From positions 1 through 17,060 of the forward strand of contig WRCL01000004.1 in NCBI GenBank assembly GCA_009783975.1: a DNA stretch of 17,060 nucleotides. The letters run 5' to 3'. Both the position numbers and the translations under genes were made by a program. The notes under the pieces were generated by a model. It saw only the letters and a program-made list of their open reading frames with translations. It searched no databases and was not told the origin of the DNA. Source of the stretch: Micrococcales bacterium. Lineage in GTDB: Bacteria; Actinomycetota; Actinomycetes; Actinomycetales; Cellulomonadaceae. Shown here piece after piece: positions 1,516 through 17,060 of the stretch (positions are counted from its first letter, which is position 1; each line of letters begins with the position of its first letter).

Positions 1516-1539
1516 GCCCCGACCCGAGCGGCGAAAAGC

Positions 1540-1545
1540 TACGAT
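1540..1545 (+). promoter_or_regulatory. Putative -10 box, leaderless start of peptidase 2
   Basis: TACGAT ends 6 nt before the GTG at 1552, within the same GGCGAAAAGCTAC-plus-TTGTC block found before paralogue 1. There is no Shine-Dalgarno. This copy is closer to the TANNNT consensus than the first one, so paralogue 2 may have its own promoter in the 36-bp gap. Confidence 0.55.
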
Positions 1546-1551
1546 TGTCCG

Positions 1552-2646
1552 GTGAGCCAGCCCGGCCCGTGGCCACCCCAGCGCCCCGGCGTGCCTCCGC
1601 AGCGTCGTGGGTACCCCGGCGCGTGGCAGGCCCAGGCACGGCCTGGCTGGCCGCCCCAGCACGGTCCACGGCGACCCGGACCGCACCCGCAGTACCCACC
1701 CCAGCAGTACCCGCCACGCCATCGCCAGCACTACGGCGCTGCGCCGCCCTACCCCGGACCTGCCCGGCCTGCGCAGCCGCGCCCGCCGAAGAGGTCACGG
1801 GCGGGGCTGGGGGTGCTCATCACGGTCGTCGTGCTGGTCATGCTCGTCGTGCCTGCGGTCGTGCTCGTCGTCGGCGCTGGGCACCTTCCCACCCGGACAG
1901 CGAGCAGCCCGGCGCGACAGTCGTCCGCGCCGAGCGTCCCGGTGACCCGTGACGAGGCACGCGCCGTGCTGGAGTCCAACGGCCTGTACTCCCAGCACCT
2001 GTCACCAACCACGTGCCACGTCGACGACACCGACTACGCCAGCGCCTCGACCAGCCAGGACGAGGAACGTATGGCGAGCTTCGTCCAGTGCCTGCTCGAC
2101 GCGTGGACCGGTCCTGTCGCCGCTGCTGGGTTCTCGCTGCCACGCCCGCAGGTGACGGTCTACCCCCGTGCGGCGTCGGGCCCGTGCGGCGACCTTCGCG
2201 GTGGTGTGAGCTACTGCCGGGCCGACAAGGCGATCTACTACTCGGGCACCTACCTGCAGGCTCGTCCGCAGGCTCTGGTCGTCGAGTCCGCGCTGGCCCA
2301 CGAGTTCGCCCACCTCGTCCAAGAGCAGGTCCAGATCTTGTGGAGCCATGGCATGGTCGCAGGCGGCGAGGATGAGGCCGGCGGCCGGGACCTGCACCGG
2401 CGCAAGGAGCTGCAGGCGGACTGCATGGCCGGGGCCGTCCTCAACTCTGTCTCCCAGTCACTGGGGCTGACGACCGCTGACCGCGAACGCGTCGTCGAGT
2501 TCTTCGCAGAGGTCGCGGACGCCACCGCCTACGAGGGAAACCATGGGACGGCCGTCAACCGCGCGTACTGGGCTGGGGCGGGTCTGGCGACGACGTCCGC
2601 CGGGACGTGCAACACCTTTGCCGCCCCCGCCGACCGTGTCAGCTGA
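1552..2646 (+). CDS. Membrane-anchored neutral zinc metallopeptidase with Pro-rich tail (paralogue 2)
   Basis: This 364-aa protein (GTG start) is a paralogue of the preceding gene. It shares the N-terminus MSQPGPW, the C-terminus APADRVS and the catalytic-domain layout, but its proline-rich tail is only about 80 residues long. A basic KRSR (80-83) precedes a single membrane segment at about 85-110. The PF04228-like domain carries HEFAH at 250-254 and a third-ligand glutamate in KELQADCMAG at about 286, so the zinc site looks intact. The cysteine pattern matches paralogue 1. Topology is probably N-in/C-out. The tandem arrangement with duplicated upstream blocks indicates a local gene duplication in which the tails diverged much more than the enzyme domains. 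The substrate cannot be told from sequence. Confidence 0.85.
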   Translation: MSQPGPWPPQRPGVPPQRRGYPGAWQAQARPGWPPQHGPRRPGPHPQYPPQQYPPRHRQHYGAAPPYPGPARPAQPRPPKRSRAGLGVLITVVVLVMLVVPAVVLVVGAGHLPTRTASSPARQSSAPSVPVTRDEARAVLESNGLYSQHLSPTTCHVDDTDYASASTSQDEERMASFVQCLLDAWTGPVAAAGFSLPRPQVTVYPRAASGPCGDLRGGVSYCRADKAIYYSGTYLQARPQALVVESALAHEFAHLVQEQVQILWSHGMVAGGEDEAGGRDLHRRKELQADCMAGAVLNSVSQSLGLTTADRERVVEFFAEVADATAYEGNHGTAVNRAYWAGAGLATTSAGTCNTFAAPADRVS

Positions 2647-2784
2647 GGCCGGTCGCACAACCTGCCTGGGGCGGGTACGCTGACCGGCCATGCGCACTGG
2701 TCGCAGGCGGTCTTGGTGGCGCACTGCAGCGGCGGCGGCGACCCACGTGCTGGACGGGTCCTCGCCGCTGTGGGTGCGGCACGC

Positions 2785-2790
2785 AACAAT
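2785..2790 (+). promoter_or_regulatory. Putative -10 box for glgX (start-deciding)
   Basis: AACAAT matches TATAAT at four of six positions and ends 7 nt before the GTG at 2798. This is the same geometry as at the two peptidase genes and glgE. An alternative TACGCT at 2676-2681, 8 nt before the ATG at 2690, would give a 36-residue N-terminal extension. No Shine-Dalgarno supports either start. Confidence 0.35.
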
Positions 2791-2797
2791 GGGTGCC

Positions 2798-4981
2798 GTG
2801 AACCGACCGACGTCTCCGCCCCGCCTGGGCCTGCAGCCGGTGCGCGGCGGTGTCGATGCTGCCGTCCTCGCCCCGCACGCGACGGCTGTGGACCTGTGCC
2901 TGTTCGACGAGACCGGGTCACCGGCGTCAGAGCAGCGGGTACCGATGGACGGTCCGCGCCACGGGGTGTTCACCGCGCACGTGCCGGGGGCCGGTGCCGG
3001 GCTGCGTTACGGGTTTCGCGCCCACGGTCCGTGGGAACCTCTGCACGGGTTGCGGTACAACCCTGCCAAGCTGCTCGTCGACCCGTACGCCCGGGGCCTT
3101 GTCGGCGAGCTGGGGTACGGTCCGGCGACGTACGGGCACACCGTCGACAGCCTGTTGCGCGGTGACGCCTGCGGTCCGCCAGACCCGCGCGACTCAGCCG
3201 ACCAGGTGCCGCACGGTGTCGTCGTCGACACTGCCGCGCTGGACGGCCCCGACCCGGCGACGAACCGTCCGTGGACGCCGTGGGCCCGCACCGTGGTGTA
3301 CGAGGCGCACGTGGTCGGTCTGACCCGCCTGGCCTCGTTCGTCCCAGCCGAGCTGCGCGGCACGTACGCCGGCCTGGCCCACCCGCAGGTCGTCGAGCAC
3401 CTGCTACGCCTGGGCGTCACTGCGGTCGAGCTGCTGCCGATCCACGCCGCGACGTCCGAACCGCTGCTCGTCGGCCGTGGCCTGACCAACTACTGGGGGT
3501 ACAACACGCTGGGCTTCTTCGCCCCCCACGCCCCGTACGCGACGGCCGCTGCACGCGCTGGCGGTCCCGCCGCTGTGCTCGCCGAGGTGCGCACGATGGT
3601 CCACACCTTGCACGAGGCAGGTCTGGAGGTCGTGCTCGACGTCGTGTACAACCACACCGCCGAAGGCGGGCCGGCCGGCCAGCACCTGTCGTGGCGGGGC
3701 TTGGACAACGCGTTGTACTACGCCTACGACTGCAACGTCCCAGCGATGTACGCCGACGTCACCGGCACCGGCAACGCCTTGGACTTCCGCCGGGCAGAGG
3801 TCGTGCGCCTGACGCTGGACTCGCTGCGCTACTGGGCTGACGTCGTGGGCGTCGACGGGTTCCGGTTCGACCTGGCTGTGACCTTGGGGCGGGGGGTCGA
3901 CGGGTTCACCGCTGACCACCCCACGTTGGTCGGGGCTGCGACCGACCCGTCGCTGCACGGTCTGAAGCTCATCGCCGAACCGTGGGACGTGGGCCCTGGT
4001 GGGTGGCGGACCGGCGAGTTCGGCCTGCCGTTCGCCGAGTGGAACGACCGGTTCCGCGACTCGGTGCGCTCGTTCTGGCTCGCCGACCCTGCCCGCGCCG
4101 CCCACGGGCTGCCTGGGCACCGTGTGCGTGAGCTGGCCACACGCCTGGCCGGGTCGGTGGACCTGTTCGGCGCGGGCAACCCCCCGCTCGTACGTGGACC
4201 AGAGGCGTCGGTGAACTACGTCACTGCGCACGACGGTTTCACCCTTGCCGACCTCGCGGCGTACGACCACAAGCACAACGAGGACAACGGCGAGGACAAC
4301 CGCGACGGGGCCAGCGAGAACAAGTCGTGGAACCACGGGGTCGAAGGCCCGGTGCTGCCTGATTCTCCCGCCGCTGAGATCGCCCCGTTGCGGCGCCGGT
4401 CGGTGCGCAACCTGTTCGCCACCCTCGTGCTGTCCGCCGGCACCCCGATGATCGTCGCCGGCGACGAGATGAGCCGCACCCAGCAGGGCAACAACAACGC
4501 GTACTGCCAGGACTCGCCGATCTCCTGGGTCGACTGGGACCTGGCGCCGTGGCAGTCAGACATGCTCGCCACAGCCACGCACCTGCTCGCCTTGCGCCGC
4601 GACCACCCGGCGCTGCGCACCGAACGTTTCTACACCGGGGCTCCCCTGGCCTCAGGCCTGCCTGACCTGGCGTGGTACGACCCGGCGGGGGTGCTGTTCG
4701 ACCACGCCCGTTGGCACGACCCTGCTCTGCGCACCTTCCAGATGGTGCGGACCGCAGGGTCGGCGCGCGACGTGGTCCTCGTGGTGTTCAACGGGGCGTT
4801 GGACCCCCAGGACGTCGTCCTGGCCAACACAGACGGCGACCCGTGGCTGGCTGTGTGGGACTCAGTCTGGGAGCACCCCGACGACCAACGCGACGTCGCC
4901 GCGGCAGGCCCGGGGCACCTGCCGGGTGGGGCCAAGGTCACCATGGAGCCCTTGTCGATGCGCGTGTACGTGACACGTTGA
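2798..4981 (+). CDS. glgX: Glycogen debranching enzyme GlgX (GH13, isoamylase type)
   Basis: It hydrolyses alpha-1,6 branches of glycogen or maltodextrin in the cytoplasm. From the GTG it is 727 aa, normal for GlgX. An N-terminal CBM48-like region is followed by the GH13 barrel. Expected landmarks are present: NYWGYNTLGFF, the nucleophile Asp358 in GFRFDLAV, acid/base Glu394 in LIAEPWD, transition-state stabiliser Asp479 in TAHDGF, then EDNRDG, NHGVEGP and GDEMSRTQQGNNNAYCQD. The reading frame is open back to an ATG at 2690, but those 36 residues are basic and tryptophan-rich and look nothing like a GlgX N-terminus; an ATG at 2789 is also possible. The N-terminal motif LGLQPVRGG differs from the usual PLGA form. 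glgE follows 44 bases later, suggesting coordinated alpha-glucan turnover. Confidence 0.93.
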   Translation: MNRPTSPPRLGLQPVRGGVDAAVLAPHATAVDLCLFDETGSPASEQRVPMDGPRHGVFTAHVPGAGAGLRYGFRAHGPWEPLHGLRYNPAKLLVDPYARGLVGELGYGPATYGHTVDSLLRGDACGPPDPRDSADQVPHGVVVDTAALDGPDPATNRPWTPWARTVVYEAHVVGLTRLASFVPAELRGTYAGLAHPQVVEHLLRLGVTAVELLPIHAATSEPLLVGRGLTNYWGYNTLGFFAPHAPYATAAARAGGPAAVLAEVRTMVHTLHEAGLEVVLDVVYNHTAEGGPAGQHLSWRGLDNALYYAYDCNVPAMYADVTGTGNALDFRRAEVVRLTLDSLRYWADVVGVDGFRFDLAVTLGRGVDGFTADHPTLVGAATDPSLHGLKLIAEPWDVGPGGWRTGEFGLPFAEWNDRFRDSVRSFWLADPARAAHGLPGHRVRELATRLAGSVDLFGAGNPPLVRGPEASVNYVTAHDGFTLADLAAYDHKHNEDNGEDNRDGASENKSWNHGVEGPVLPDSPAAEIAPLRRRSVRNLFATLVLSAGTPMIVAGDEMSRTQQGNNNAYCQDSPISWVDWDLAPWQSDMLATATHLLALRRDHPALRTERFYTGAPLASGLPDLAWYDPAGVLFDHARWHDPALRTFQMVRTAGSARDVVLVVFNGALDPQDVVLANTDGDPWLAVWDSVWEHPDDQRDVAAAGPGHLPGGAKVTMEPLSMRVYVTR

Positions 4982-5013
4982 CGTCCAGTGTCCCGCTGGG
5001 GCCAAAATCGGGC

Positions 5014-5019
5014 TAGTTT
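5014..5019 (+). promoter_or_regulatory. Putative -10 box, leaderless start of glgE
   Basis: TAGTTT lies 6 nt before the GTG at 5026. The 44-bp gap after glgX contains no Shine-Dalgarno, so glgE-treS may have its own leaderless promoter besides any read-through from glgX. Confidence 0.5.
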
Positions 5020-5025
5020 CGTCTT

Positions 5026-7131
5026 GTGAGCACCAACTCTCAGCCACCGGCTCCGCGCGCCCGACGTGCCCCGTCACCTGACTCCCCCGTCGGCCGCATC
5101 CCTGTGGTCGACGTGCAACCTGTGAGCGAGGCCGGCCGCTTCCCGGCCAAGTCCACGGTGGGCGAGGTGTTCCCCGTGCGGGCCACCGTGTTCCGCGAGG
5201 GCCACGACGCGTACAGCGCCGAAGCGGTGCTGGTTCGGCCCGACGGCACCGAGGCGTCGCGTACCCGTATGCACGAGGTCGGGATCGGCCTGGACCACTA
5301 CGAGGCGTTGGTGCGTGCCGATGCGACCGGGGCATGGACGTTCCGCGTCGAGAGCTGGTCAGACCCGTGGGCGACATGGGTCCACGACGCGGGGATCAAG
5401 ATCCCCGCCGGTATCGACGTCGACCTCATGTGCCTGGAAGGGGCGGCGGTGCTCGAACGGGCCGCGGCCCAACGTGGGGTGGACCCGCCAGACCGCTCAG
5501 CCCGTGCTGTGCTGCGCGAGGGCGCCCGGGCCCTGACCGACGACGGCTCTTCGCGGACGACCGCTGCCGTGCCCGCCACAGCCCCGCCGACGGTGGTGTG
5601 GCTCAGCGCAGCCGACCGGTTCGCCGCGCTCATGTCCGGACCGGTGCCGCAGGTGATGCGGCGCTACCCGCTGCGCGACCGGCGCACCTTGTCCCCCGAC
5701 TACCCGCTGCGGGTCGAACGCCCCCTGGCCCTGGCCGGGGCGTGGTACGAGATGTTCCCGCGTTCTGCTGGCGCCCACGTCGACCCTGCGACAGGCCAGT
5801 GGGTCTCTGGGACGTTGCGCACAGCGGCAGATGAGCTCCCGCGGATCGCCGCGATGGGGTTCGACGTGGTCTACCTCACCCCTGTGCACCCGATCGGCAC
5901 GACGTTCCGCAAAGGCCGCAACAACACCCTGGAAGCCAAACCTGGTGACCCCGGTTCCCCGTACGCGATCGGTTCGCCTGATGGCGGGCACGACGCGGTC
6001 GAACCGTCGCTGGGCACGTTCGACGACTTCGACGCGTTCGTCGCGCGGGCCCGTGAGCTGGGGATGGAAGTCGCGCTCGACCTGGCGTTGCAGTGCTCGC
6101 CGGACCACCCGTGGGTCGCCGCGCACCCCCAGTGGTTCGCCCACCGCGCTGACGGGTCGATCGCCTACGCGGAGAACCCGCCAAAGAAGTACCAGGACAT
6201 CTACCCGTTGTACTTCGACGCCGACCCCAAAGGCCTGCGCTGCGAGATCCGCCGCGTCATCGACGTGTGGATCGAGCACGGTGTCACCGCGTTCCGCGTG
6301 GACAACCCGCACACCAAACCGTTGCCGTTCTGGCAGCGGCTGCTGGCCGACCTGCACCACGACCACCCCGACGTGCTGTTCTTGTCCGAGGCGTTCACCC
6401 GTCCAGCGATGATGCTCACCTTGGCCAAGTGCGGGTTCCACCAGTCGTACACATATTTCGCCTGGCGCAACACCAAACCCGAGGTCGAAGAATACCTTGC
6501 GACTGTCGGCTCGGACCAGGCCGCGTGGATGCGGCCCAGCTTCTGGCCGACGACGCACGACATCTTGACCCCATACATGCAGCACGGCGGCGTCGGTGCG
6601 TTCGCGGTCCGTGCGGTGCTCGCCGCGATGGGTTCACCGACGTGGGGGATCTACTCAGGATACGAGCTCGTCGAGAACGTCCCGCGGCCCGGGTACGAAG
6701 AACAGGTCGACAACGAGAAGTACGAGTACAAACCCCGTGACTGGTCCGAGGGCGACCAGTACGGGATCGCGCTGCTCCTGGGGCGCCTGAACGAGATCCG
6801 CCGTGCCCACCCTGCCTTGCGCCAGCTGCGCAACGTGCGGGTGCACAGCACCGACAACGACGCCATGGTGTGCTTCTCGCGGCACCTGGCCCCTGAGCAC
6901 TCGTCGACCGGGCTGCGTGACGTCGTCGTCGCCGTGGTCAACCTCGACCCGTTCCACACCCAAGAAGGGTGGGTCCACCTGGACCTGGCCGCCCTTGGCC
7001 TGCCGACCGACCGCGGGTTGACCGTCGTCGACGAGCTCACTGGTGAGTCCCACGAGTGGTGGTGCGACAACTACGTGCGGCTGGCCCCTGAGTCCAGCTG
7101 TGCGCACATCATGACGGTGAGCGCCCCGTGA
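5026..7131 (+). CDS. glgE: Alpha-1,4-glucan:maltose-1-phosphate maltosyltransferase GlgE
   Basis: GlgE transfers maltosyl units from alpha-maltose 1-phosphate to the non-reducing end of alpha-1,4-glucan. It is the elongating step of the actinobacterial TreS-Mak-GlgE-GlgB route. The 701-aa protein has a DUF3416-like N-terminal beta domain (about 25-130), a helical insertion, and the GH13_3 catalytic barrel. Active-site residues are in place: nucleophile Asp426 in FRVDNPHTKP, Glu455 in LSEAFTRP and Asp512 in the TTHDIL motif. Other matches are YLTPVHPIG, GRNN near 301 and the C-terminal WGIYSGYELVEN. The GTG start fits the -10 box just upstream and the usual family length. Its last codons overlap the treS start by GTGA, implying translational coupling. 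The first 25 residues are low-complexity and probably disordered. Confidence 0.96.
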   Translation: MSTNSQPPAPRARRAPSPDSPVGRIPVVDVQPVSEAGRFPAKSTVGEVFPVRATVFREGHDAYSAEAVLVRPDGTEASRTRMHEVGIGLDHYEALVRADATGAWTFRVESWSDPWATWVHDAGIKIPAGIDVDLMCLEGAAVLERAAAQRGVDPPDRSARAVLREGARALTDDGSSRTTAAVPATAPPTVVWLSAADRFAALMSGPVPQVMRRYPLRDRRTLSPDYPLRVERPLALAGAWYEMFPRSAGAHVDPATGQWVSGTLRTAADELPRIAAMGFDVVYLTPVHPIGTTFRKGRNNTLEAKPGDPGSPYAIGSPDGGHDAVEPSLGTFDDFDAFVARARELGMEVALDLALQCSPDHPWVAAHPQWFAHRADGSIAYAENPPKKYQDIYPLYFDADPKGLRCEIRRVIDVWIEHGVTAFRVDNPHTKPLPFWQRLLADLHHDHPDVLFLSEAFTRPAMMLTLAKCGFHQSYTYFAWRNTKPEVEEYLATVGSDQAAWMRPSFWPTTHDILTPYMQHGGVGAFAVRAVLAAMGSPTWGIYSGYELVENVPRPGYEEQVDNEKYEYKPRDWSEGDQYGIALLLGRLNEIRRAHPALRQLRNVRVHSTDNDAMVCFSRHLAPEHSSTGLRDVVVAVVNLDPFHTQEGWVHLDLAALGLPTDRGLTVVDELTGESHEWWCDNYVRLAPESSCAHIMTVSAP

Positions 7132-8927
7132 GCCCACCGGTCGGCCGCTGGTCGGCGGCACCAGTACGTGTCGTCCAGCCCCCGCCGCGGACCCCCGCGC
7201 TGGGTTTGACCGCGCTGCCCCCGCGCCGCCAGCCCCGTGTGGACCCAGTGTCGGTCGGGGGGCTGACCGACGACCCCCAGTGGTACCGGCGGGCGGTGTT
7301 CTACGAGGTCATGCTGCGGTCGTTCTCCGACTCTGGCGGCGACGGGGTTGGGGACCTGCGTGGGCTCGTCGCCCGCCTGGACTACCTGCAGTGGCTGGGG
7401 GTCGACTGCCTGTGGCTGCCACCGTTCTATCCCTCGCCGATGCGCGACGGCGGGTACGACGTGTCGGACTTCACCGCGGTCGCCGCGCAGTACGGCACGA
7501 TGTCGGACTTCGCCTCGCTCATCGAGCAGGCGCACCGCCGCGGGATCCGCGTCGTGGTCGACATGGTCATGAACCACACCTCAGACGTCCACCCATGGTT
7601 CCAGTCGTCGCGGTCAGACCCCGACGGGCCGTACGGGGATTTTTACGTGTGGTCGCAGGAGAACACCCGGTACCCCGACGCCCGGATCATCTTCGTCGAC
7701 ACCGAGACGTCGAACTGGACGCTGGACCCTGTGCGCCGGGAGTATTTTTGGCACCGTTTCTTCAGCCACCAGCCTGACCTCAACTACGAGAACCCCAAAG
7801 TCCGCCACGCGATGCTCGACGCCGCCCGGTTCTGGTTGAACCTCGGCGTGGACGGTTTCCGTCTCGACGCCGTCCCGTACCTGTTCGAGGCTGAGGGCAC
7901 CAACTGCGAGAACCTGCCCAAGACCCACGAGTTCTTGCGCACGATGCGGCGGATGGTCGACGACGAGTACCCAGGCCGGATCTTGCTCGCCGAGGCGAAC
8001 CAGTGGCCTGAGGACGTCGTGCACTACTTCGGCACGGACAAAGAACCCGAGTGCCACATGTGCTTCCACTTCCCGGTGATGCCACGGATCTTCTACGCCC
8101 TGCGCGACCAACGCGCGAACGCGATCATCGACATCCTCGAAGACACCCCGCCCATCCCCGCGGCGGGCCAGTGGTCGACGTTCTTGCGCAACCACGACGA
8201 GCTGACGTTGGAGATGGTCTCCACCGAGGAGCGCGCCTCGATGTACGGGTGGTACGCCACCGACTCGCGGATGCGCGCCAACGTCGGGATCCGCCGGCGC
8301 CTGGCCCCCTTGCTGGAGAACAACCGCAAGGAGATCGAGCTCGCGCACGCCCTGCTGCTGTCGCTGCCCGGCTCACCGTGCCTGTACTACGGCGACGAGA
8401 TCGGTATGGGCGACAACATCTGGTTGCCTGACCGCGACGCCGTGCGCACCCCCATGCAGTGGACCCCCGACCGCAACTCCGGGTTCTCCACCGCCGACCC
8501 TGGCCAGCTCAACCTGCCGCTCGTGCAGTCGCTGGTCTACCACTACGGCAACGTCAACGTCGAAGCCCAGCTCGCCCAACCCGCGTCGTTGCTGCACTGG
8601 GTGCACGGCATGCTCGCCGTGCGCCGGTGCCACCCAAGCCTGGGCGCAGGCACCTTCGAGGTGCTCGGGTGCGACAACGACGCTGTGCTCGGGTTCTTGC
8701 GCGCCAAACCCGCCGACCGCACCACCGCGGCCGACATGGTCCTCGTCGTGGCGAACCTCGCCGCCACAGCCCGCTCGGCGACGATCACCCTGCCCGAGTC
8801 AGTCCCCCCAGGCCGGGTGCTACGCGACGTGTTCGGCGGCGCGACGCTCGGCACCGTCAGCCCCGACGGCACAGTCCTGATCACCTTGGGCTCGCGAGAG
8901 TTCTTCTGGATCGAGATCACCCAATAA
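7128..8927 (+). CDS. treS: Trehalose synthase / maltose alpha-D-glucosyltransferase TreS
   Basis: TreS reversibly isomerises trehalose and maltose, and so feeds maltose to maltokinase for GlgE. The 599-aa length matches mycobacterial TreS, and long blocks agree with it, such as HAxFYEV-like, YLQWLGVDCLWLPPFYPSP, NCENLP, FHFPVMPRIF, NVGIRRRLAPLL and TPMQWTPDRNSGFS. The GH13_16 catalytic residues are Asp247 (GFRLDAVPYLF), Glu289 (LLAEANQWPE) and Asp357 (LRNHDELTLE). The GTG start overlaps the glgE stop by four bases. The first 50 residues are proline-rich and not part of the conserved domain. No maltokinase domain is fused and none follows. The next genes are convergent, so treS is the last gene of this plus-strand unit. 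Confidence 0.97.
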   Translation: MSPPVGRWSAAPVRVVQPPPRTPALGLTALPPRRQPRVDPVSVGGLTDDPQWYRRAVFYEVMLRSFSDSGGDGVGDLRGLVARLDYLQWLGVDCLWLPPFYPSPMRDGGYDVSDFTAVAAQYGTMSDFASLIEQAHRRGIRVVVDMVMNHTSDVHPWFQSSRSDPDGPYGDFYVWSQENTRYPDARIIFVDTETSNWTLDPVRREYFWHRFFSHQPDLNYENPKVRHAMLDAARFWLNLGVDGFRLDAVPYLFEAEGTNCENLPKTHEFLRTMRRMVDDEYPGRILLAEANQWPEDVVHYFGTDKEPECHMCFHFPVMPRIFYALRDQRANAIIDILEDTPPIPAAGQWSTFLRNHDELTLEMVSTEERASMYGWYATDSRMRANVGIRRRLAPLLENNRKEIELAHALLLSLPGSPCLYYGDEIGMGDNIWLPDRDAVRTPMQWTPDRNSGFSTADPGQLNLPLVQSLVYHYGNVNVEAQLAQPASLLHWVHGMLAVRRCHPSLGAGTFEVLGCDNDAVLGFLRAKPADRTTAADMVLVVANLAATARSATITLPESVPPGRVLRDVFGGATLGTVSPDGTVLITLGSREFFWIEITQ

Positions 8928-9009
8928 CGTCGTCCGCCCCTCGTGTGGGCGCGGCGATCCACCCCAGTCTCGGCATAGCCCCCACTCTTTCGTAGTCCCC
9001 ACCCAGACT

Positions 9010-9097
9010 GAGTTCGTGGGTTTGATGACGAGTTCGATGATTAGATCATCGAACTCGTCATCTAGCCCACGAACTCGTCATGCAACCATCGAACTCG
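9010..9097. repeat. Long palindrome built from a 20-bp periodic motif; possible bidirectional terminator or REP-like element
   Basis: An 18-bp arm GATGACGAGTTCGATGAT (9024-9041) is followed by the 3-nt loop TAG and its exact complement (9045-9062). The hairpin extends outward through an 11-bp perfect arm GAGTTCGTGGG (9010-9020)/CCCACGAACTC (9066-9076), with a 3x3 internal loop between the arms. The core word GAGTTCG occurs at 9010 and 9030. Its complement CGAACTC occurs at 9050, 9070 and 9090, an exact 20-base step throughout. Its place between convergent genes suits termination from both sides, but there is no T-tract. A dispersed palindromic repeat is the alternative. Confidence 0.75.
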
Positions 9098-9295
9098 CCC
9101 ACCCGATTCTTCAGACACGGTCCGGGCACCAGGGCCCGTCCTCCATCTTCCCGTATTTCTTCCTCGCCGAGCGCCGAGCACGACGTGAAGCCAGCCGTCC
9201 GCAAGCCCAGCCCGGTCACCGAGCTCGTCAAGATCCGCACTAACCTCGCCGCGGAGATGCGCACCTGACAACACCCGTCCCCCGTTCACATGGGT

Positions 9296-9437
9296 CCAAG
9301 ATGCAGCGTCGCGGCTGGCCGACTTTGAATCGCTTCTCGCCCTGCATGCAAGACGATTAGTTATCATCCTGACCATCCATAGTTCCGCTGGGGCCAAGAC
9401 GCAGCGTCGTGACTGGCCGACTTTGAATCACTTCTCG
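9296..9437. repeat. 44-bp direct repeat pair (9296-9339 and 9394-9437)
   Basis: The two copies begin CCAAGA(T/C)GCAGCGTCG and end in CACTTCTCG or CGCTTCTCG. They match at 40 of 44 positions, with all differences transitions, and start 98 bases apart. The second copy includes the stop and last codons of the 67-aa gene on the minus strand. Between them lies the 45-bp rhs/immunity junction remnant, so the arrangement is repeat, remnant, repeat. Confidence 0.8.
9343..9387 (-). repeat. Remnant copy of the rhs-toxin stop / immunity start junction
   Basis: These 45 bases match 11211-11255 at 43 positions in the same orientation. Read on the minus strand they keep the last rhs codons (NYGWSG, TGA), the overlapping immunity ATG and its first codons (MITNRLA). 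Homology to the toxin does not continue before it, nor to the immunity gene after it. It is therefore a scar of a former toxin-immunity junction, or a short homology used for cassette exchange, rather than a gene. Confidence 0.8.
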
Positions 9438-9631
9438 TCCTTCAGGTGCATCACTGCATCTGCGACATCAGCGCGTACCCTCACTCGGAGTATGTCACCC
9501 GTTTCGGTGCGAATCATGTCGAGAAGCACCAAGTCCGGATCAGCAAGGAACGGGTTGTGTTCCAGATATTCCTCGAGACGACGGCGGACCAATTCTATCG
9601 GCCCGCCTTCGACGAGAGTGACCCACGTCAT
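9428..9631 (-). CDS. Small hypothetical protein, 67 aa, possible immunity or accessory gene
   Basis: I do not recognise a family. The 67-aa product begins MTWVTLVEGGPIELV and is rich in acidic and branched residues. It has a helical-looking start (ELVRRRLEEYLE) and a strand-like end (DILRVRVRADV). A GGAGG Shine-Dalgarno lies 11 nt before the ATG, stronger than anything at the metabolic genes, and codon use looks protein-coding. It follows the 224-aa putative immunity gene by about 93 bases on the same strand. Its final codons lie inside the 44-bp direct repeat. An 86-aa open frame on the opposite strand overlaps it but has no start signal. It may be a second immunity protein or the surviving end of a lost cassette. 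Confidence 0.6.
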   Translation of the reverse strand: MTWVTLVEGGPIELVRRRLEEYLEHNPFLADPDLVLLDMIRTETGDILRVRVRADVADAVMHLKDEK

Positions 9632-9724
9632 CGGAAAAAATACCTCCGTGAGATTTCTGGCCCGGGTCGCCGCACTTTCTCCAGTAATATGTCCGTACCG
9701 AATTGATTCGCGCAGGTGGTTGAG

Positions 9725-10399
9725 TTACTGTCCCACCCCCCAGCTCAAGTAGGCAGATCCATATATGCTCGCGAAGTCTTCTTCCCAGTCGGGCCACTCT
9801 AGCATTCGTGTGGCAGACCATTCTGGTTCCACGCCGAGAGGCACTCCGAGCGCACGTAGGTACGCGTACATCATGTCGGCAGTGAAACGGGTGGAGCGAA
9901 CCCTCCTCTTGTAGGCCTCCAAGTCTTCAAAGTCGAACGGGGTGCCGTAGGTCTCGAATACCCATCTGCCCCCGTCGTTCGCGGCTGCTATCGACCGTTC
10001 ATACCCAAGGATCTCGTCACCCGCGGGTCCGAACACCTCGAGGACCCGCGCAGGATACTGGACGTTGTCGCCTGTGCAGAGGGCCCGCAGAGCCCGGATG
10101 CCAAGCCCTCTCGCTGCATGGCTCGGTAAGATTCCGACGTCGCTGCCACCTGGGCCGTTGCTCATCAGCACGGTCCACCCACCGATCGGGACGAAAGCAT
10201 ACCGGAACAGCGCCGGCGTCGGCACGAGGGCAGATAGAGCGTCTTCGGGACCCGACCAGCGAGGACGGACCTCAATCCAATGCTCCTCTTCCATCGCGGC
10301 AAATCCGGGATAAATCCAATCGACCAGCTTTTGCGTGTCGTAGGCGAAGTAGCCGACTGTCTCGGTGGTTTTTCCTCCGTGCGAAGAGGGAAGCATCAT
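9725..10399 (-). CDS. Putative immunity protein for the orphan toxin, 224 aa
   Basis: No named family is recognised. The 224-aa protein has no signal peptide or membrane segment and is rich in Trp, Tyr and acidic residues (PRWSGPEDAL, WEEDFASIYG), as cytosolic immunity proteins often are. It starts at an ATG overlapping the stop of the toxin fragment by ATGA, with AAGGA about 8 nt upstream, so the two are co-translated. A segment PALFRYAFVPIGGWTVLMSN followed by PSHAARGLGIRALRA looks like a conserved core. Base composition is visibly lower in G+C than the metabolic genes, supporting transfer as part of a toxin/immunity cassette. The immunity role is inferred from position and overlap only. 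Confidence 0.65.
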   Translation of the reverse strand: MMLPSSHGGKTTETVGYFAYDTQKLVDWIYPGFAAMEEEHWIEVRPRWSGPEDALSALVPTPALFRYAFVPIGGWTVLMSNGPGGSDVGILPSHAARGLGIRALRALCTGDNVQYPARVLEVFGPAGDEILGYERSIAAANDGGRWVFETYGTPFDFEDLEAYKRRVRSTRFTADMMYAYLRALGVPLGVEPEWSATRMLEWPDWEEDFASIYGSAYLSWGVGQ

Positions 10400-10752
10400 G
10401 GCACAATCCTTAAGACGAAGACAGCGTTTGGGTCATTCGCGAGAATCCGTGCCTCGTGTTCGGCTCCACGAGGATTACCAACACCTTCATATTCGACATA
10501 GTGTCGCTTTCTGTTGAGCGTGTACTGCAGGTCGGGACGATTTATTCCTACCCGCTGCCCTGCGGCATTCACTTGCTGCTGATTCACCCGGAAGTCTTTC
10601 GCGCGAAAGAGTGACCGGATCTCCGCTTTGACTGCTGCGTTGTGCGATGGCCGACCGATCGACCGCGTCAGCGAGAGTGTCCCTGGTGCTACTGGGCTGA
10701 CCTCCATCCTCCTCTGACTGACGTGGTCGCAAATTTCGTGCAGCACGCACAT
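10396..10752 (-). CDS. Orphan Rhs-type toxin C-terminal module (putative nuclease), lacking its Rhs delivery part
   Basis: The open frame gives 118 aa. The last 60 residues (QRVGINRPDLQYTL, HYVEYEG, EHEARILANDPNAV) resemble the C-terminal nuclease domains of actinobacterial and Bacillus Rhs/CDI toxins. Asp74, Glu87 and His99 are candidate catalytic residues, perhaps of a PD-(D/E)xK-like fold; this is an inference. No YD repeats, signal peptide or DPxGL boundary precede it. The start is doubtful: the ATG at 10752 has only a weak GGTGGA upstream, and the ATG at 10707 directly abuts AGGAGG. The frame continues back, through WNGG, to the TAG of the preceding immunity gene. The stop overlaps the next gene by ATGA. 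It fits an orphan module awaiting recombination into an rhs gene, or a decayed one. Confidence 0.6.
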   Translation of the reverse strand: MCVLHEICDHVSQRRMEVSPVAPGTLSLTRSIGRPSHNAAVKAEIRSLFRAKDFRVNQQQVNAAGQRVGINRPDLQYTLNRKRHYVEYEGVGNPRGAEHEARILANDPNAVFVLRIVP

Positions 10753-10764
10753 TCCACCATTCCA

Positions 10765-11235
10765 CTAGTCGCCCGGACCAAGAAGCGCACTCGGCAGAAC
10801 ATGGCTCGCGTTCCGAATCTCTATCCCAATAATGTTGCTACCGTCGGAGAAGTCGACCGTGGCAGAAAATTGCTCTGGCGCGATCTCTGCCGCCACTCTG
10901 CGAATTACAGCGCACGGTGACGAGCAGGTGAGTACCCGGGCGACATCGGACACGTCGTCGTACGCACAGTCGAGGAAACGGGGCACCGCTTGTCTCGGTG
11001 ACTCTTGCTCAGAAGTGTCATTCAGAATTTCTTGAGGAAGGACCTTGCTCGCACCGAGCACCTCGATGCCCATGAGACGCCCCTCGTCTCCAAAACTCAC
11101 GACAATGGCGGCCATGTCAAGTCGAACGCCCAGGAAGGCGCCCCGCGCCTCCGAACTGCAGGCAGGGTCACCGAAGTAGATATATGACGCGTCTGCTACG
11201 CTGTCGTGCGTGTATGCAAGGCGATTAGTTATCAT
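10765..11235 (-). CDS. Tandem DUF2283-domain protein, putative immunity to the Rhs toxin
   Basis: From the ATG at 11235 the product is 156 aa. Two similar halves are visible. The first runs from YTHDSVADASYIYF to GRLMGIEVLGASKVLP, the second from CAYDDVSDVARVL to SNIIGIEIRNASHVLP. Both show the DUF2283 pattern: an aspartate-rich start (Y/A-D-x-V-x-D), then a strand and GIE(V/I)..AS.VLP. DUF2283 proteins occur as partners of small DUF4258-type toxins, and the rhs gene upstream ends in such a domain, so this is the likely immunity protein. Its start overlaps the rhs stop by ATGA. An ATG three codons earlier (11244) would give a 13-base overlap. GGATGG lies 5 nt before the chosen start. Doubling of the domain is unusual. 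Confidence 0.75.
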   Translation of the reverse strand: MITNRLAYTHDSVADASYIYFGDPACSSEARGAFLGVRLDMAAIVVSFGDEGRLMGIEVLGASKVLPQEILNDTSEQESPRQAVPRFLDCAYDDVSDVARVLTCSSPCAVIRRVAAEIAPEQFSATVDFSDGSNIIGIEIRNASHVLPSALLGPGD

Positions 11236-11255
11236 CCTGACCATCCATAGTTCCG
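11211..11255 (-). repeat. Intact rhs stop / immunity start junction, duplicated at 9343-9387
   Basis: This is the functional copy of the 45-bp direct repeat. It holds the rhs stop (11232-11234), the overlapping immunity start and the next codons. The partner copy is 1868 bases away in the same orientation, with 2 mismatches. Together they bracket the DUF2283 gene, the orphan toxin, its immunity gene and the 67-aa gene. Confidence 0.8.
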
Positions 11256-14200
11256 TGCCAATCCCGCTAACTCTTCAGCCGTCATGCCTCGGTGGGCTGT
11301 CACGATCTCGTGTTCAAGGTTTTCGACGATATAGTTATACTTCCCTTTTCCGGCACTCGTGACATATGCCATGGCACCGTCCATCTGTTCATAACTCCTT
11401 CCACTGCCACGCATCAATGCCACGTCAACGTCGTCGAAACCCGCTTCAGCCATACGCTTCTCGCCGTGAGCGGTCATCCGGCCGGTGTACGGACTGCGTC
11501 CGATCGATCCTTGTTCAGAATTAATTGTCCGACTGGCTCGCGCCCGAGCCACCAGGCTGTGTTCGTTCTTTGCGGCATTTCGGACAGTGGTATTCGCGAC
11601 TGCGTCCGAACTGGCTCTCGTGGTGGATCTGGCGAATGCGGAAGCACCCATTCGTGACGAGCTTGTTGCGCCCCGGGCTGCGCTGCCGCCCGGGATAACG
11701 AGGGAAGCAGCAGTGCCGGCATGCCCACCCCAGGTATAGGCGCCTGAACAGTAGTTGACGACGTCGTCGATGAGGAACAACTGCCGGATGGCCTTAGTGC
11801 CATCCATGGTCATGGCATCACCGAAGCCGGCTGAGGCATTACTGACGGTGCGCACTGTGTCCCAGAACCGTTTTTCCCAGTCCAGGCCGAGGGGGTCGGT
11901 GTTCTGCAGTGGGTTGCCGCCTGCGTACCCGTATGGGTCGCCGGTGACTTCGGCCAGGGGGTCGACTGACACGAACTGGGCGGTGGCTGGGTCGTAGTAC
12001 CGGTTGCGCAGGTACTGCAGGCCGGTGGGGTCGGTGTACTGCCCGGCGTACCCGAACCTGGTCACACTGGTGCACGGGTCGGTGGTGACCGGTTGGGGCT
12101 GGCCGTAGGGGTCGTAGTCGGCGTCGCACACCACGTGCGCGCCTGGCCCGGTGGCGGTGCGCACCGACCCGACCAGGTCGGTGTGCAGGTAGACCACCTC
12201 ACCGTTGGTCCCGACCTGGGCCAGGGGGGTGTCGCCCAGGCCGTAGACGTAGGTGTGCTCGGCGTCGGCCAGCACGGTGGGCACGGCCCGGGTGGTGTCC
12301 CACACGTACTGCTCAGACGTGGTGGTCCCACCTGTGGTGGTGGTCGCCGAGGTGCGCAGCCCGGTCGCGTCGTAGGTGTACGCGGTGGCGCTGGTCGCGT
12401 CGGTGTGTGTGACCAGGTGCCCGGCGAGGTCCCACCCCAGGGTCTGCGTGGTCGTGCCCGTGCCGGTGGTCGTGGTGGCGGTGGTGCGGTTGCCGTTGGT
12501 GTCGTACCCGAAGGTGGTCGTGCCCGTGCCGGGTTTGGCCACCGCGGCCAGGCGCCCTGCGGTGTCGTAGGACAACGACCGGCCGTCAGCGGTGCCGGTC
12601 ACCAGCCCGGCGGTGTCCCAGCCGAACGTGCCCGCACCGGTCCCCGTGACGGTCTCCAGCCGGCCCAGCGGGTCGAAGGTGAGCTGGGAGGTGGTCGACG
12701 CGGGGTTCGGTGGTGACCTGCCGGTCGGGGACCGCACCGAGGTGCTGGTGGCGACCTGCCCGGCGTCGTCGAAGGTGTACGCCAAAGCCAGCAAGGCGGT
12801 CCCGTCAGGCTGCGTGGTGGTCACCGCGGTGTTCTGCCCAGCCGTGTCGTAGTCCCAGCCGGTGCTCACACCGTTGGGGTAGGTCACCGAGGCGACCTGG
12901 CCGTCGACGGTCCAGGTGTGGTGGTACTGGCCACCGGTCCAGTCGGTGACCTTGACCAGCTGGTCGGCGGCGTCCCAGGTGTAGGTGACCTGCTTCCCGT
13001 CGGGGTACCCGATGGTCGTGGGGCGCCCAGCGGTGTCGTAGCCGTACATCACCGTGCCTGTGGGCCGGGTGATCGAGGCGACCAGGCCTGTGGGGGTCCA
13101 CGTGTACGACGTGCCGTCGGAGACCTGCTGGACCTGCCCGGCCGCATCGTAGGTCCACGTCACGTCCGGTGTGGTGTCAGAGTAGGTGGTGCTGGTGCGC
13201 CGCCCAGCGTTGTCGTACCCGTAGGTCGCGGTGCCCCCAGAAGGCAAGGTGGTCGCGGTCAGCTGGCCGGCGGCGTCCCAGGTGTAGGCGGTGGCCCGCC
13301 CGGCCGGGTCGGTGACCAGGGTGGGACGGCCTGCGTTGTCGTAGGCGTACGTGGTCGTGCCCGACGGGTCGGCGTGGGCGGTGGTCCGCCCAACCGCGTC
13401 GTAGGCCCAGGTCAGCACCGAACCGTCGGGGCGGGTCACTGACGTGGCACGCCCGGCCCCGTCGTAGGCCATCGTCACTGTGCGGTCCAGCGGGTCGTGC
13501 ACCGTGACCGCCCGCCCGGCAGCGTCGTAGGACGTGGTCCACACTGCCCCGAGCGGGTCGCTCACCACGGTCGCCTGGCCGGCAGCGTCGTAGGTGTAGC
13601 CCCAGGTCGCACCTGAGGGGTAGGTCACGGCGGTGACCTGGCTCGCCGCGTCGTAGGTGGTGGTCGTCACCTGGCCCAGCGGGTCGGTGACGGCCGTGGG
13701 GCGGCCGGCAGCGTCGTAGGCGTACCCGGTGACCGCACCGGTCGGGTCTGTGACCTGGACCACCCGGCCGGCGAGGTCGTACCCGGTCGAGGTCACCGCG
13801 TTGGCTGGGTCGGTCGCCGAGACCAGCTGCCCGGCCGCGTCGTACACCGCGGTGCTGGTGCGGCCCAGCGGGTCGGTGACGGTCGTGGGCCGTCCCGCGG
13901 CGTCGTACCCGACGGTGGTGACCGCACCGGTGGGGTCGGTGACCGACGTCACCCGGCCCGCCTGGTCATAGCCGACCGCGGTGGTCTTGCCCACCGCGTC
14001 GGTGGTTGAGGTCATCTGGCCGGCCAGGTCCCACGCTGCGGTGACCACGGCACCGGCCGGGTCGGTCGTGGAGGTGCGGTATCCGCGGGCGTCGTAGGTG
14101 TACGACGTCACCAGGCCCAGCGGGTCGCTGACTGATGCGACCGTCCCGTCGGGGTTGACCACGGCCGTGGTCTGGGCACCGGTCGGGCTGGTCGCACCAG

Positions 14201-17060
14201 TGGGGTTGCCCCGCTGGTCGAACGTGAACGTCCACGTCGCACCCGTCGGGTCGGTCGCCGAGGTCATGGAGCCCAGCCCATCGTAGGTCCAGGTGGTCAC
14301 CCGGCCCAGCGGGTCGGTCGTGGAGGTGCGGTTCCCCGCGGCGTCGTAGGTGTGCGTGGTCACCTGGCGCAACGGGTCGGTGACGAGCACCGGCTGGTTC
14401 GTCGGCCCGTACACCAGGACCGTCGTCGCAGCCGCCGCGGTGCCATACCCCACCGTCTGCAGCACCAGGCGCCCGTCAACGTACTGCTCGCGGGTCACGT
14501 TCCCGGCCGGGTCGGTCACCAGCACCCCACCAAGGACGTATGCGAAGGTCGTGGTCCGGCCCAACGGGTCGCTCTGGGACGTCACCCGGCCCGAAGAGTC
14601 GTAGACGTTCGTCGTGACCCCACCAGTGGCGCTGGTCATCGAGGTCACCTTGTGCGCGGTGTACCCGTACCCCAGGTGCGTGCCGTCGGCCTGCGTCACG
14701 TCGACCAGGTCACCAGACGGCGAGTACGAGTACGACACGGTCCGCCCCGCCAGGTCGGCGACCTGCGCGACCCGGTCCCCCGACCAGGTCACCACCAGTG
14801 ACCTGCCCACGTCGTCGCTGACCTGCACCAGGTGCCCGCCCGGGTCGTACGACAGGCCGACCCCGTTGCCGTTGAGGTCTTCCACCCGCACCAAAACACC
14901 AGCCGTGTCGAACACGAACACCTGCCTGGCGCCACGCACGAACCGGTACGACCCGTCACCGGCCCGCTCCAAGGTCGCCAGCACCCGCAAAGGCGCGGCG
15001 AACCCGCCCAGCCCGTCAGCAGCGAACCGGACCCTGGACCCGTTCTCCTGGACCACGTCCACCCACGGCGAGGCAAGGCCCGCACCACCAGAACCGACCA
15101 GCCGCATCGTGTACGGGCTGGACCACCCGAACCCCAGGCCGGTGTCGTCGCTGGCGACCTGCGACCCATACGTGCGCGCCCACACCAGGCCCGGGCCCAG
15201 GCCCGGGACCTCAAGGTCCACCATGTGCTCGAAGAACTCACCGGTCGCAGTGTTCACCGGGTCCCCGTGGCACGTCTGGGCGCACGCCTGCGACGGGTTC
15301 GACCCACCCGCGGTCTCGCCCGGCAACCCCGGGCCACCAGTGTTCGGAGCCGAGAACCCATTCGAGATCGCCTGGATGTCGTCACGTCCGAAGTTCATCG
15401 CGACATACGCCACATATACGCGCACAGCACCTGACGCGACATTGACCGTCACGGTGCACGTCTTGTCGTCCGCCGACCACACCCCTCCGTAGTCGTTGCC
15501 CACCTGGCAATACCCGACCAAAGAGTCGGCGGTCACCTCACGAACCACCAGCATGTAGTCCGCCTGCTTAATGTTCTGGTTGACCGCGGCGGTGAGCGTG
15601 ATCGTGTCTCCTGCGCTGGTCAACGACGCCGACGACATCAAGGTCACCGTCCACGGCGCCCGCTGCAAGGTCACGCCGTTGCTGGCTGCCTGCGTGTCGG
15701 CAAGGGTCCAGTCCGCCACCACGTACGCCTGGTACGTGTAGGGGCCACCGGTGGCGAAAGACACCTGGACCGTGCACGTCAAGTCCGTGGGCGACCACGG
15801 GGCACTGTCGCTGGCCGCCCGGCAGTGCCCCCGGTTCGTGCCAGCGTCGTCGCGGAACAAGACCATGTACCCCGACTTCATGATGTCCTGGTTCACCGTC
15901 GCAGTCAGCGCGACTTTCTCGCCAGCGTCGAACACCGTGCGGTCTGCCGACAACGACACCGTCCACGCCATCCGCTGCACGACCACGTCGTTGCTCAGGG
16001 CCTGCACGTCTGCCAGCGACGTGCCCGCCGCCACGTACGCCCGGTACGTGTGGGGCCCCCCGGTGGGGAACGAGACCTGGACCGTGCAGGTCTTGGCCCC
16101 CGCCGACCACGTCGCGTTGCTGTCGGTGCCGGCATGGCAGTACCCGACCGTGCCACCAGTGGTCACATCCTTGACGACCACCTGGTACGACGAGGCCTTG
16201 ACGTCCTGGTTCACCGTGACCGTCAACGTGCTCTTCTGCCCAGCGGCGAACTCTGCAGAGTCCGACACCAGCGCCGCCGCCCAAGCCATCCGTTGCAGGA
16301 CCACCTCGTTGCTCGTGGCCTGCAGGTCGGTCCCAGCGTTGTCGCCAGCCACGTACGCCTGGTACGTGTGCGGACCACCAGTGGCGAACGAGGTCGTCAC
16401 CGTGCACGTGCGGTCCACCACCGACCACACCGCGACGCTGCTGTTCGACCCGCAGTACCCCAACACACCACCAGTGGTGACGTCCCTCACCACCAGGCGG
16501 TACGACGAGGCCTTGACGTCCTGGTTCGCCGTCGCGGTCAACGTCACCTTCTCACCAACGACGAAGGTCACCTTGTCCGCCGCCAGCGTCACCGTCCACG
16601 CCGCCCGCTCGAGCACCACCTCGTTGGAGGTCGCCTGCAGGTTGTTCCCGGTGTTGTCGGTCGCCACATACGCCTGGTACGTGTGCGCACCACCAGTGGC
16701 GAACGAGGTCGTCACCGTGCACGTGCCGTCCACCACCGACCACACCGCGACGCTGCTGCTCGACCCGCAGTACCCCAGCACCCCACCAGTGGTGACGTCC
16801 TTGACCACCAGCCGGTACGACGAGGCCTTGACGTCCTGGTTCGGCGTCGCGGTCAACGTCACCTTCTCACCAACAGCGAAAGCCAGCTTGTCCGCCGACA
16901 GCGCCACCGTCCACGCCGCCCGCTCGACCACCACCTCGTTGCTGCTCGCCTGCAGGTCGTTCAGCGACGTGTCAGCCGCGACGTACGCCTGGTACGTGTG
17001 CGCCCCACCAGTGGCAAACGACGTCTTCAACGTGCACGTCCCGTCGGGCCCTGACCACAC
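11232..17060 (-). CDS. Rhs/YD-repeat polymorphic toxin, partial (N-terminus beyond window)
   Basis: A surface or secreted effector whose C-terminus is probably delivered to neighbouring cells. 1942 residues are visible (numbered from the right edge); the start, any signal peptide and the promoter lie outside the window. Order: tail of one repeat (1-48); five Ig-like repeats of about 105 aa (49-573), four typical and the last more divergent; a short Gly/Pro linker; a DUF6531-like segment from GDPVNTATGEFF (about 599); many ~21-aa YD repeats of the form DPLGRTTxxxYDAAGR (about 760-1600); an Rhs core with DLVGSVR, YDPYGQP and QYLRNRYYDPATAQFVSVDP, ending in DPLGL (1722-1726); and a 216-aa variable C-terminus. 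No frameshift was seen. The core has much higher G+C than the C-terminus. No PAAR or type VI features are visible, so Sec export with a WapA-like mode is likely. Confidence 0.92.
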   Translation of the reverse strand: MWSGPDGTCTLKTSFATGGAHTYQAYVAADTSLNDLQASSNEVVVERAAWTVALSADKLAFAVGEKVTLTATPNQDVKASSYRLVVKDVTTGGVLGYCGSSSSVAVWSVVDGTCTVTTSFATGGAHTYQAYVATDNTGNNLQATSNEVVLERAAWTVTLAADKVTFVVGEKVTLTATANQDVKASSYRLVVRDVTTGGVLGYCGSNSSVAVWSVVDRTCTVTTSFATGGPHTYQAYVAGDNAGTDLQATSNEVVLQRMAWAAALVSDSAEFAAGQKSTLTVTVNQDVKASSYQVVVKDVTTGGTVGYCHAGTDSNATWSAGAKTCTVQVSFPTGGPHTYRAYVAAGTSLADVQALSNDVVVQRMAWTVSLSADRTVFDAGEKVALTATVNQDIMKSGYMVLFRDDAGTNRGHCRAASDSAPWSPTDLTCTVQVSFATGGPYTYQAYVVADWTLADTQAASNGVTLQRAPWTVTLMSSASLTSAGDTITLTAAVNQNIKQADYMLVVREVTADSLVGYCQVGNDYGGVWSADDKTCTVTVNVASGAVRVYVAYVAMNFGRDDIQAISNGFSAPNTGGPGLPGETAGGSNPSQACAQTCHGDPVNTATGEFFEHMVDLEVPGLGPGLVWARTYGSQVASDDTGLGFGWSSPYTMRLVGSGGAGLASPWVDVVQENGSRVRFAADGLGGFAAPLRVLATLERAGDGSYRFVRGARQVFVFDTAGVLVRVEDLNGNGVGLSYDPGGHLVQVSDDVGRSLVVTWSGDRVAQVADLAGRTVSYSYSPSGDLVDVTQADGTHLGYGYTAHKVTSMTSATGGVTTNVYDSSGRVTSQSDPLGRTTTFAYVLGGVLVTDPAGNVTREQYVDGRLVLQTVGYGTAAAATTVLVYGPTNQPVLVTDPLRQVTTHTYDAAGNRTSTTDPLGRVTTWTYDGLGSMTSATDPTGATWTFTFDQRGNPTGATSPTGAQTTAVVNPDGTVASVSDPLGLVTSYTYDARGYRTSTTDPAGAVVTAAWDLAGQMTSTTDAVGKTTAVGYDQAGRVTSVTDPTGAVTTVGYDAAGRPTTVTDPLGRTSTAVYDAAGQLVSATDPANAVTSTGYDLAGRVVQVTDPTGAVTGYAYDAAGRPTAVTDPLGQVTTTTYDAASQVTAVTYPSGATWGYTYDAAGQATVVSDPLGAVWTTSYDAAGRAVTVHDPLDRTVTMAYDGAGRATSVTRPDGSVLTWAYDAVGRTTAHADPSGTTTYAYDNAGRPTLVTDPAGRATAYTWDAAGQLTATTLPSGGTATYGYDNAGRRTSTTYSDTTPDVTWTYDAAGQVQQVSDGTSYTWTPTGLVASITRPTGTVMYGYDTAGRPTTIGYPDGKQVTYTWDAADQLVKVTDWTGGQYHHTWTVDGQVASVTYPNGVSTGWDYDTAGQNTAVTTTQPDGTALLALAYTFDDAGQVATSTSVRSPTGRSPPNPASTTSQLTFDPLGRLETVTGTGAGTFGWDTAGLVTGTADGRSLSYDTAGRLAAVAKPGTGTTTFGYDTNGNRTTATTTTGTGTTTQTLGWDLAGHLVTHTDATSATAYTYDATGLRTSATTTTGGTTTSEQYVWDTTRAVPTVLADAEHTYVYGLGDTPLAQVGTNGEVVYLHTDLVGSVRTATGPGAHVVCDADYDPYGQPQPVTTDPCTSVTRFGYAGQYTDPTGLQYLRNRYYDPATAQFVSVDPLAEVTGDPYGYAGGNPLQNTDPLGLDWEKRFWDTVRTVSNASAGFGDAMTMDGTKAIRQLFLIDDVVNYCSGAYTWGGHAGTAASLVIPGGSAARGATSSSRMGASAFARSTTRASSDAVANTTVRNAAKNEHSLVARARASRTINSEQGSIGRSPYTGRMTAHGEKRMAEAGFDDVDVALMRGSGRSYEQMDGAMAYVTSAGKGKYNYIVENLEHEIVTAHRGMTAEELAGLARNYGWSG
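11235..11882 (-). other. Variable C-terminal toxin region of the Rhs protein (pre-toxin linker plus DUF4258/BECR-like domain)
   Basis: After DPLGL comes a linker like the pre-toxin segments of Rhs proteins (FGDAMTMDGTKAIRQLF, IDDVVNYCSGAY, then a Gly/Ala hydrophobic stretch). It is followed by an Ala/Ser/Arg-rich spacer and a final domain of about 81 residues (1862-1942, bases 11477-11235). That domain starts MTAHGEKRMAEAGFDDVDV and later has YNYIVENLEHEIVTAHRGM. The H..xRM..xGxxxxDV beginning and late strand pattern resemble DUF4258, a member of the barnase/EndoU/colicin/RelE (BECR) RNases. His1865, Arg1869 and His1923 are candidate active-site residues. G+C content is clearly lower than in the YD repeats. 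The RNase activity is inferred. Confidence 0.6.
15340..17060 (-). repeat. Tandem ~315-bp (105-aa) Ig-like repeats
   Basis: Successive units begin near 16916, 16601, 16286, 15971 and 15653; a further unit is cut by the window edge. Spacing measured on the recurring ACGTCCTGG word is 315, 315, 318 and 312 bases. Each unit has (A/P)WTV, GEKVTLTA, a NQD-type turn, one Cys in GYC and one in TCTV (probably a disulfide), and ends TYQAYVA....LQA.SN. The two units nearest the edge are about 85% identical in protein and very close in DNA, so duplication is recent. They probably form a stalk displaying the Rhs barrel. Confidence 0.85.

Follow-up and report, generated by a model that had tools for sequence, protein, structure and literature searches.

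DUF4258 has been listed among the BECR toxin families as one of unknown activity (PMC11980606, in the sections covered here), and the consulted part of a second survey gives it as a CdiA type, class 8 of the contact-dependent inhibition (CDI) toxins, with the activity entry 'tRNase (?)' (PMC11630599). A DUF4258 warhead is therefore not new. Here we describe a 17,060-bp stretch of DNA from a Micrococcales bacterium (contig WRCL01000004.1, the whole of which forms the window analyzed; genome completeness 68%), in which an Rhs protein ends in a DUF4258-like domain and the gene overlapping its stop codon encodes two copies of DUF2283. We are confident that the two genes form an effector/immunity cassette of the polymorphic toxin kind, comprising a predicted Rhs-borne BECR-type ribonuclease (RNase) and an overlapping tandem-DUF2283 gene for its presumed immunity protein. 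Sequence and structure prediction show the domains, the gene overlap and the duplication, as well as the repeated occurrence of a DUF2283 gene behind such a toxin, whether the toxin is carried on a large protein or belongs to a stand-alone pair.

The Rhs open reading frame (ORF; 11232..17060, minus strand, stop at 11232-11234) encodes 1942 amino acids within the window, its N-terminus being cut by the contig end at 17060. Pfam RHS_repeat matches it in 26 stretches (E 6.7e-129) and DUF6531 at residues 599-679 (9.3e-19), and repeated domains are visible by eye on its N-terminal side. The RHS core ends with DPLGL at residue 1722 (window 11897), followed by a linker (11490..11897, minus strand) that showed no family match in a Pfam and NCBIfam search with 11235-11885 as query, and then by the last 85 residues (11235..11489, minus strand), which form a DUF4258-like domain of predicted BECR fold and predicted RNase activity. 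This is the architecture of Rhs polymorphic toxins, in which the RHS repeats are followed at the C-terminus by a toxin domain. A reading made earlier from the sequence only had placed an H..xRM..G....DV pattern at this C-terminus, and we found it as HGEKRMAEAGFDDVDV at residues 1865-1880. The conserved histidine and arginine, residues 8 and 12 of the last 85, form the H...R pair of DUF4258; in a 12-row toxin alignment (A4) the histidine is invariant and the arginine present in at least 90% of rows. With a hidden Markov model (HMM) trained on 16 other DUF2283-paired toxins, the window excluded, the domain scored 17.7 bits, and none of 3000 shuffles scored as high. In the predicted model a helical segment at the N-terminus leads into a meander of four strands, as in the definition of the BECR fold given in the covered part of PMC3482391, and the domain closes with an extra helix bearing NYGW.

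The partner gene (10765..11244, minus strand) encodes a predicted immunity protein of 159 amino acids whose ATG (11244-11242) lies inside the last toxin codons; a second in-frame ATG (11235-11233) overlaps the toxin stop as ATGA. The whole protein matches Pfam DUF2283 (PF10049) in two stretches (5.6e-10, 39.7 bits, cut-off 23), and its halves align with a score of 68, compared to 23.6 ± 4.4 for shuffles, with none of 2000 as good, so that the two DUF2283-like halves proposed from the sequence are borne out. Copy 1 (11005..11220, minus strand, about residues 9-80) exceeds the Pfam cut-off alone (29.0 bits, 1.2e-6), whereas copy 2 (10780..10983, minus strand, about residues 88-155) falls below it (14.5 bits, E 0.04) and scores 18.8 bits with an HMM of 17 DUF2283 partners. 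Copy 2 is degenerate, having lost the N-terminal DUF2283 motif and kept the C-terminal part (VDFSDGSNIIGIEI.NASHVLPSALL). A match of this half to GTNG_1019 (E 0.37) was discarded as chance. The position and overlap of the gene fit those of cognate immunity genes in Rhs systems, and the linkage is conserved; cognate inhibition is a prediction.

We then examined how widely the pairing occurs. A search by Pfam models only found 18 DUF4258 matches at E≤1e-3 in 394 genomes of the class, and 10 of these are followed on the same strand, at most 170 bp downstream, by a DUF2283 match (genomes G250, G318, G549, G610, G298, G567, G245, G554, G415 and G522; the G549 toxin match has an internal stop). Starting instead from 48 DUF2283 loci (20 of 20 matches of one search and 28 of 41 rows of another, with 2 duplicates and 11 rows lacking a locus dropped), an HMM detected a DUF4258-like toxin upstream at 20, downstream at none and antisense at none. 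This HMM was built from 16 toxins chosen by eye from the same loci; when a locus was scored, its own toxin was left out (at ten loci a named close relative was removed as well or in its place), though other similar toxins could remain. The window, in no training set, is among the 20 at 16.0 bits (threshold 15). A G209 toxin match was dropped because it lies antisense within an ORF that by eye resembles a metallo-beta-lactamase, and a G142 partner match because by eye it sits in an unrelated 596-residue frame.

The partnership of DUF4258 and DUF2283 in stand-alone modules, which the sequence-only reading had named, is supported by small stand-alone pairs of adjacent genes in G061, G250, G318, G554, G610 and others, which may be type II toxin-antitoxin modules, and pairs are found on large carriers too. 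Over the Pfam cut-off, carriers bear RHS (G078 and G298) or PT-HINT (G298 and G522); those of G351 and G534 are WXG100-like below the cut-off, that of G331 was recognized by eye only, and the G078 carrier has, by eye, a signal-peptide-like start. The G610 partner, behind a stand-alone DUF4258 toxin (L062 1138-1650, minus strand), is a fusion of DUF2283 to HTH_17 that looks like a self-regulating antitoxin. The control genome of Corynebacterium glutamicum has matches to both DUF2283 and DUF4258, which might serve as a convenient pair for laboratory work.

The nearest relatives of the window toxin form a sub-group from Nostoc, the Frankia group and G390. In Parafrankia/Frankia (L074 313-9348 and L075 553-7428), the carrier of a related toxin end is an acidic repeat protein, and its gene and the DUF2283 gene lie between a HerA-like ATPase ORF (by Pfam for L074 only) and an ORF of 633-679 amino acids. 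This arrangement may be that of a conflict system acting within the cell and not of a secreted weapon.

Mechanistically, the Rhs shell would deliver the 85-residue C-terminal domain into a neighboring cell, where it probably cuts the tRNA or mRNA of a competitor. The DUF2283 protein would bind the toxin and so protect the producer and its kin, with copy 1, which resembles the single-domain partners, as the presumed main binding unit and copy 2 as a diverged helper that may extend or clasp the interface. We infer the RNase activity, its RNA target, the delivery into other cells, the direct binding and the roles of the two copies. More tentatively, and with some doubt, we suggest that DUF2283 could be a so far unrecognized general antitoxin and immunity family for DUF4258-like BECR RNases that passes freely between stand-alone modules and weapons of the Rhs, HINT and WXG100 types destined for secretion, and whose tandem fusion, at least twice, may have given a pseudo-dimeric or bivalent inhibitor.

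Several observations weigh against an effector/immunity cassette with an Rhs-borne BECR RNase. Pfam DUF4258 (PF14076) gave no listed match to the window domain at E≤1 or E≤10, in a search whose filters remove most matches above 0.1, and a profile of four paired toxins (G522, G331, G604 and G078) misses it, with 14 of 3000 shuffles equal. Because the Pfam cut-off was not reached, we call the domain DUF4258-like and do not file it as a member; the warhead proposed from the sequence thus stands as Rhs-borne, DUF4258-like and of predicted BECR fold, but falls below Pfam recognition as DUF4258 itself. Foldseek alone, with the toxin model, returned no significant solved structure (best BrnT, E 0.33), VIA-align Z scores for the model are all below 8, and its input alignment (A4) already includes DUF4258-like toxins. 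Consistent tops of the fold list, profile hits and relatives in the same warhead position nevertheless make it very improbable that the domain is not a nuclease, with a convergent H..RM and a fold match reflecting a common arrangement. At 28 of the 48 DUF2283 loci no such toxin lies upstream at 15 bits, so that DUF2283 is not tied to this toxin alone; four of these 28 look related by eye, two belonging to the window's sub-group (G495 and G558) and two being remnants (G103 and G206). In Nostoc and G390 the gene after the sub-group toxin is not DUF2283, as might be expected where immunity genes are exchanged. The N-terminus of the Rhs protein lies beyond the contig end, so that any export signal is unreadable, and promoter-like sites number zero in 8900-11400 compared to 1.2 in shuffles. 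A cassette that is inert, whether a relic or a silent module like the neighboring orphan pieces, would accord with the broken related pieces in G073 and the cassette footprint in the window; we consider it improbable, as both ORFs are open and overlapping and the toxin domain remains part of the Rhs protein.

The effector/immunity reading leaves a choice as to the second DUF2283 copy. The sequence-only reading took one chain to supply both halves of a dimeric antitoxin, a claim the analysis does not support: copy 2 is degenerate, a profile search for DUF2283 relatives among solved structures found none, and the structure predicted for the partner is of low quality (pLDDT 61). That DUF2283 antitoxins act as dimers and that fusion fixes the dimer, with copy 2 as a pseudo-subunit, is a possibility we regard as doubtful, given the lack of a solved relative or a confident DUF2283 model and the detection of doubling at only 2 of the 48 loci (the window and G298, by a criterion of two positive-scoring stretches). 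In its favor, the other doubled partner likewise stands behind an Rhs toxin, a G298 protein of 2393 amino acids that combines RHS repeat and PT-HINT and ends in DUF4258, and both second copies retain the G(I/L)E C-terminal region. Unlikely, in our view, is a small polyimmunity protein in which each copy fits a different toxin variant and copy 2 has been kept against a past or foreign one. The sections of Zhang 2012 covered here (PMC3482391) describe polyimmunity proteins with tandem domains, and also place them mostly in operons without toxin genes, whereas the window toxin is directly upstream. The leftovers read as other cassettes in the window and G073 agree with this idea, as does the divergence of the two copies, although the loss of the N-terminal motif from copy 2 equally fits decay. 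The second copies of the window and G298 are not specially alike (z 3.8): window copy 2 is nearest its own copy 1 (z 9.8) and then the single domain of G522 (z 9.0), and G298 copy 2 resembles the single DUF2283 of G078 (z 11.2) more than copy 1 of the same protein (z 8.6), a relation that speaks for the polyimmunity idea. The pattern, modest evidence from short stretches, does not indicate a shared origin for the two doubled proteins, which may each have arisen by duplication or paralogue fusion.

Rhs cassettes are known to undergo turnover, and a repeated junction, ORFs that resemble an orphan cassette and fragments in G073 fit this. The toxin-stop/immunity-start junction (11211..11255) recurs as a 45-nt direct repeat (96%) at 9343..9387, away from the pair, where it may be the footprint of an earlier cassette. 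Between this copy and the partner gene lie two minus-strand ORFs that lack Pfam and NCBIfam matches, one of 118 amino acids (10396..10752), whose stop overlaps the next ATG and which may be a carrier-less toxin tail, and one of 224 amino acids (9725..10399), its putative partner; together (9725-10752) they resemble an orphan cassette that differs in type from the Rhs-borne one. G073, of the same genus, holds broken pieces of the window toxin and immunity gene in a decayed array (L019 10168-15053), in which one toxin end still overlaps an immunity start; the array is followed by an ORF read by eye as XerD-like. An inverted repeat at 9010-9076 (32-nt arms, 94% complementary, 3 nt apart) lies between the cassette remains and an ordinary sugar-gene cluster; the plus-strand genes at 115-8927 are two tandem Zn_peptidase genes followed by glycogen-debranching-like, GlgE and alpha-amylase/maltogenic-amylase (TreS-like) genes.

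Protein database searches with the Rhs C-terminus and with the partner returned the window's own proteins only, marking both as near-orphans at that sensitivity, and a search with the Parafrankia carrier end returned nothing; NCBIfam gave no match over its cut-off and PDB sequence searches gave no relative. The word 'DUF2283' occurs in no paper of the literature searched, which covered work outside subscription, and PF10049 in one; nor does 'DUF2283' appear in the first 300,000 characters of Zhang 2012 (PMC3482391). The pairing offers a partner, and hence a likely function, for an uncharacterized family. It also connects one family of inhibitors with a BECR toxin family whose target is unknown, both in stand-alone modules and where the toxin is borne on a carrier. 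If this is correct, a single inhibitor fold could be compared within its own cell and in kin protection. The doubled form lends itself to a simple test of the reasons for which immunity domains are duplicated.

Among known systems, the window domain has in common with DUF4258 (PF14076) toxins, including CDI class 8, the H...RM helix start, a predicted BECR-type topology and the C-terminal warhead position; it differs in falling below Pfam recognition and in its extra NYGW helix, its Rhs carrier in an actinobacterium-class genome and its DUF2283 partner. The colicin E5 and colicin D tRNase domains and BrnT share 4-17% identity with it, and their immunity proteins are not known to be related to that of the window pair. 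On plasmid pNPM1 of Nostoc sp. N6, an Rhs/HINT toxin (WP_258169882.1) with RHS and PT-HINT on its carrier bears a homologue of the window domain at its C-terminus (E 2e-15, with 34% identity in 87 columns), but unlike in the window the gene downstream shows no DUF2283. DUF2283 itself (PF10049), whose Pfam description is 'unknown function', matches the whole partner and copy 1, from which family the window protein differs by its duplication. Polyimmunity proteins, as described in the covered sections of Zhang 2012 (PMC3482391), likewise carry more than one immunity domain per chain; unlike them, the window partner has the same domain in duplicate, and its gene immediately follows that of one toxin.
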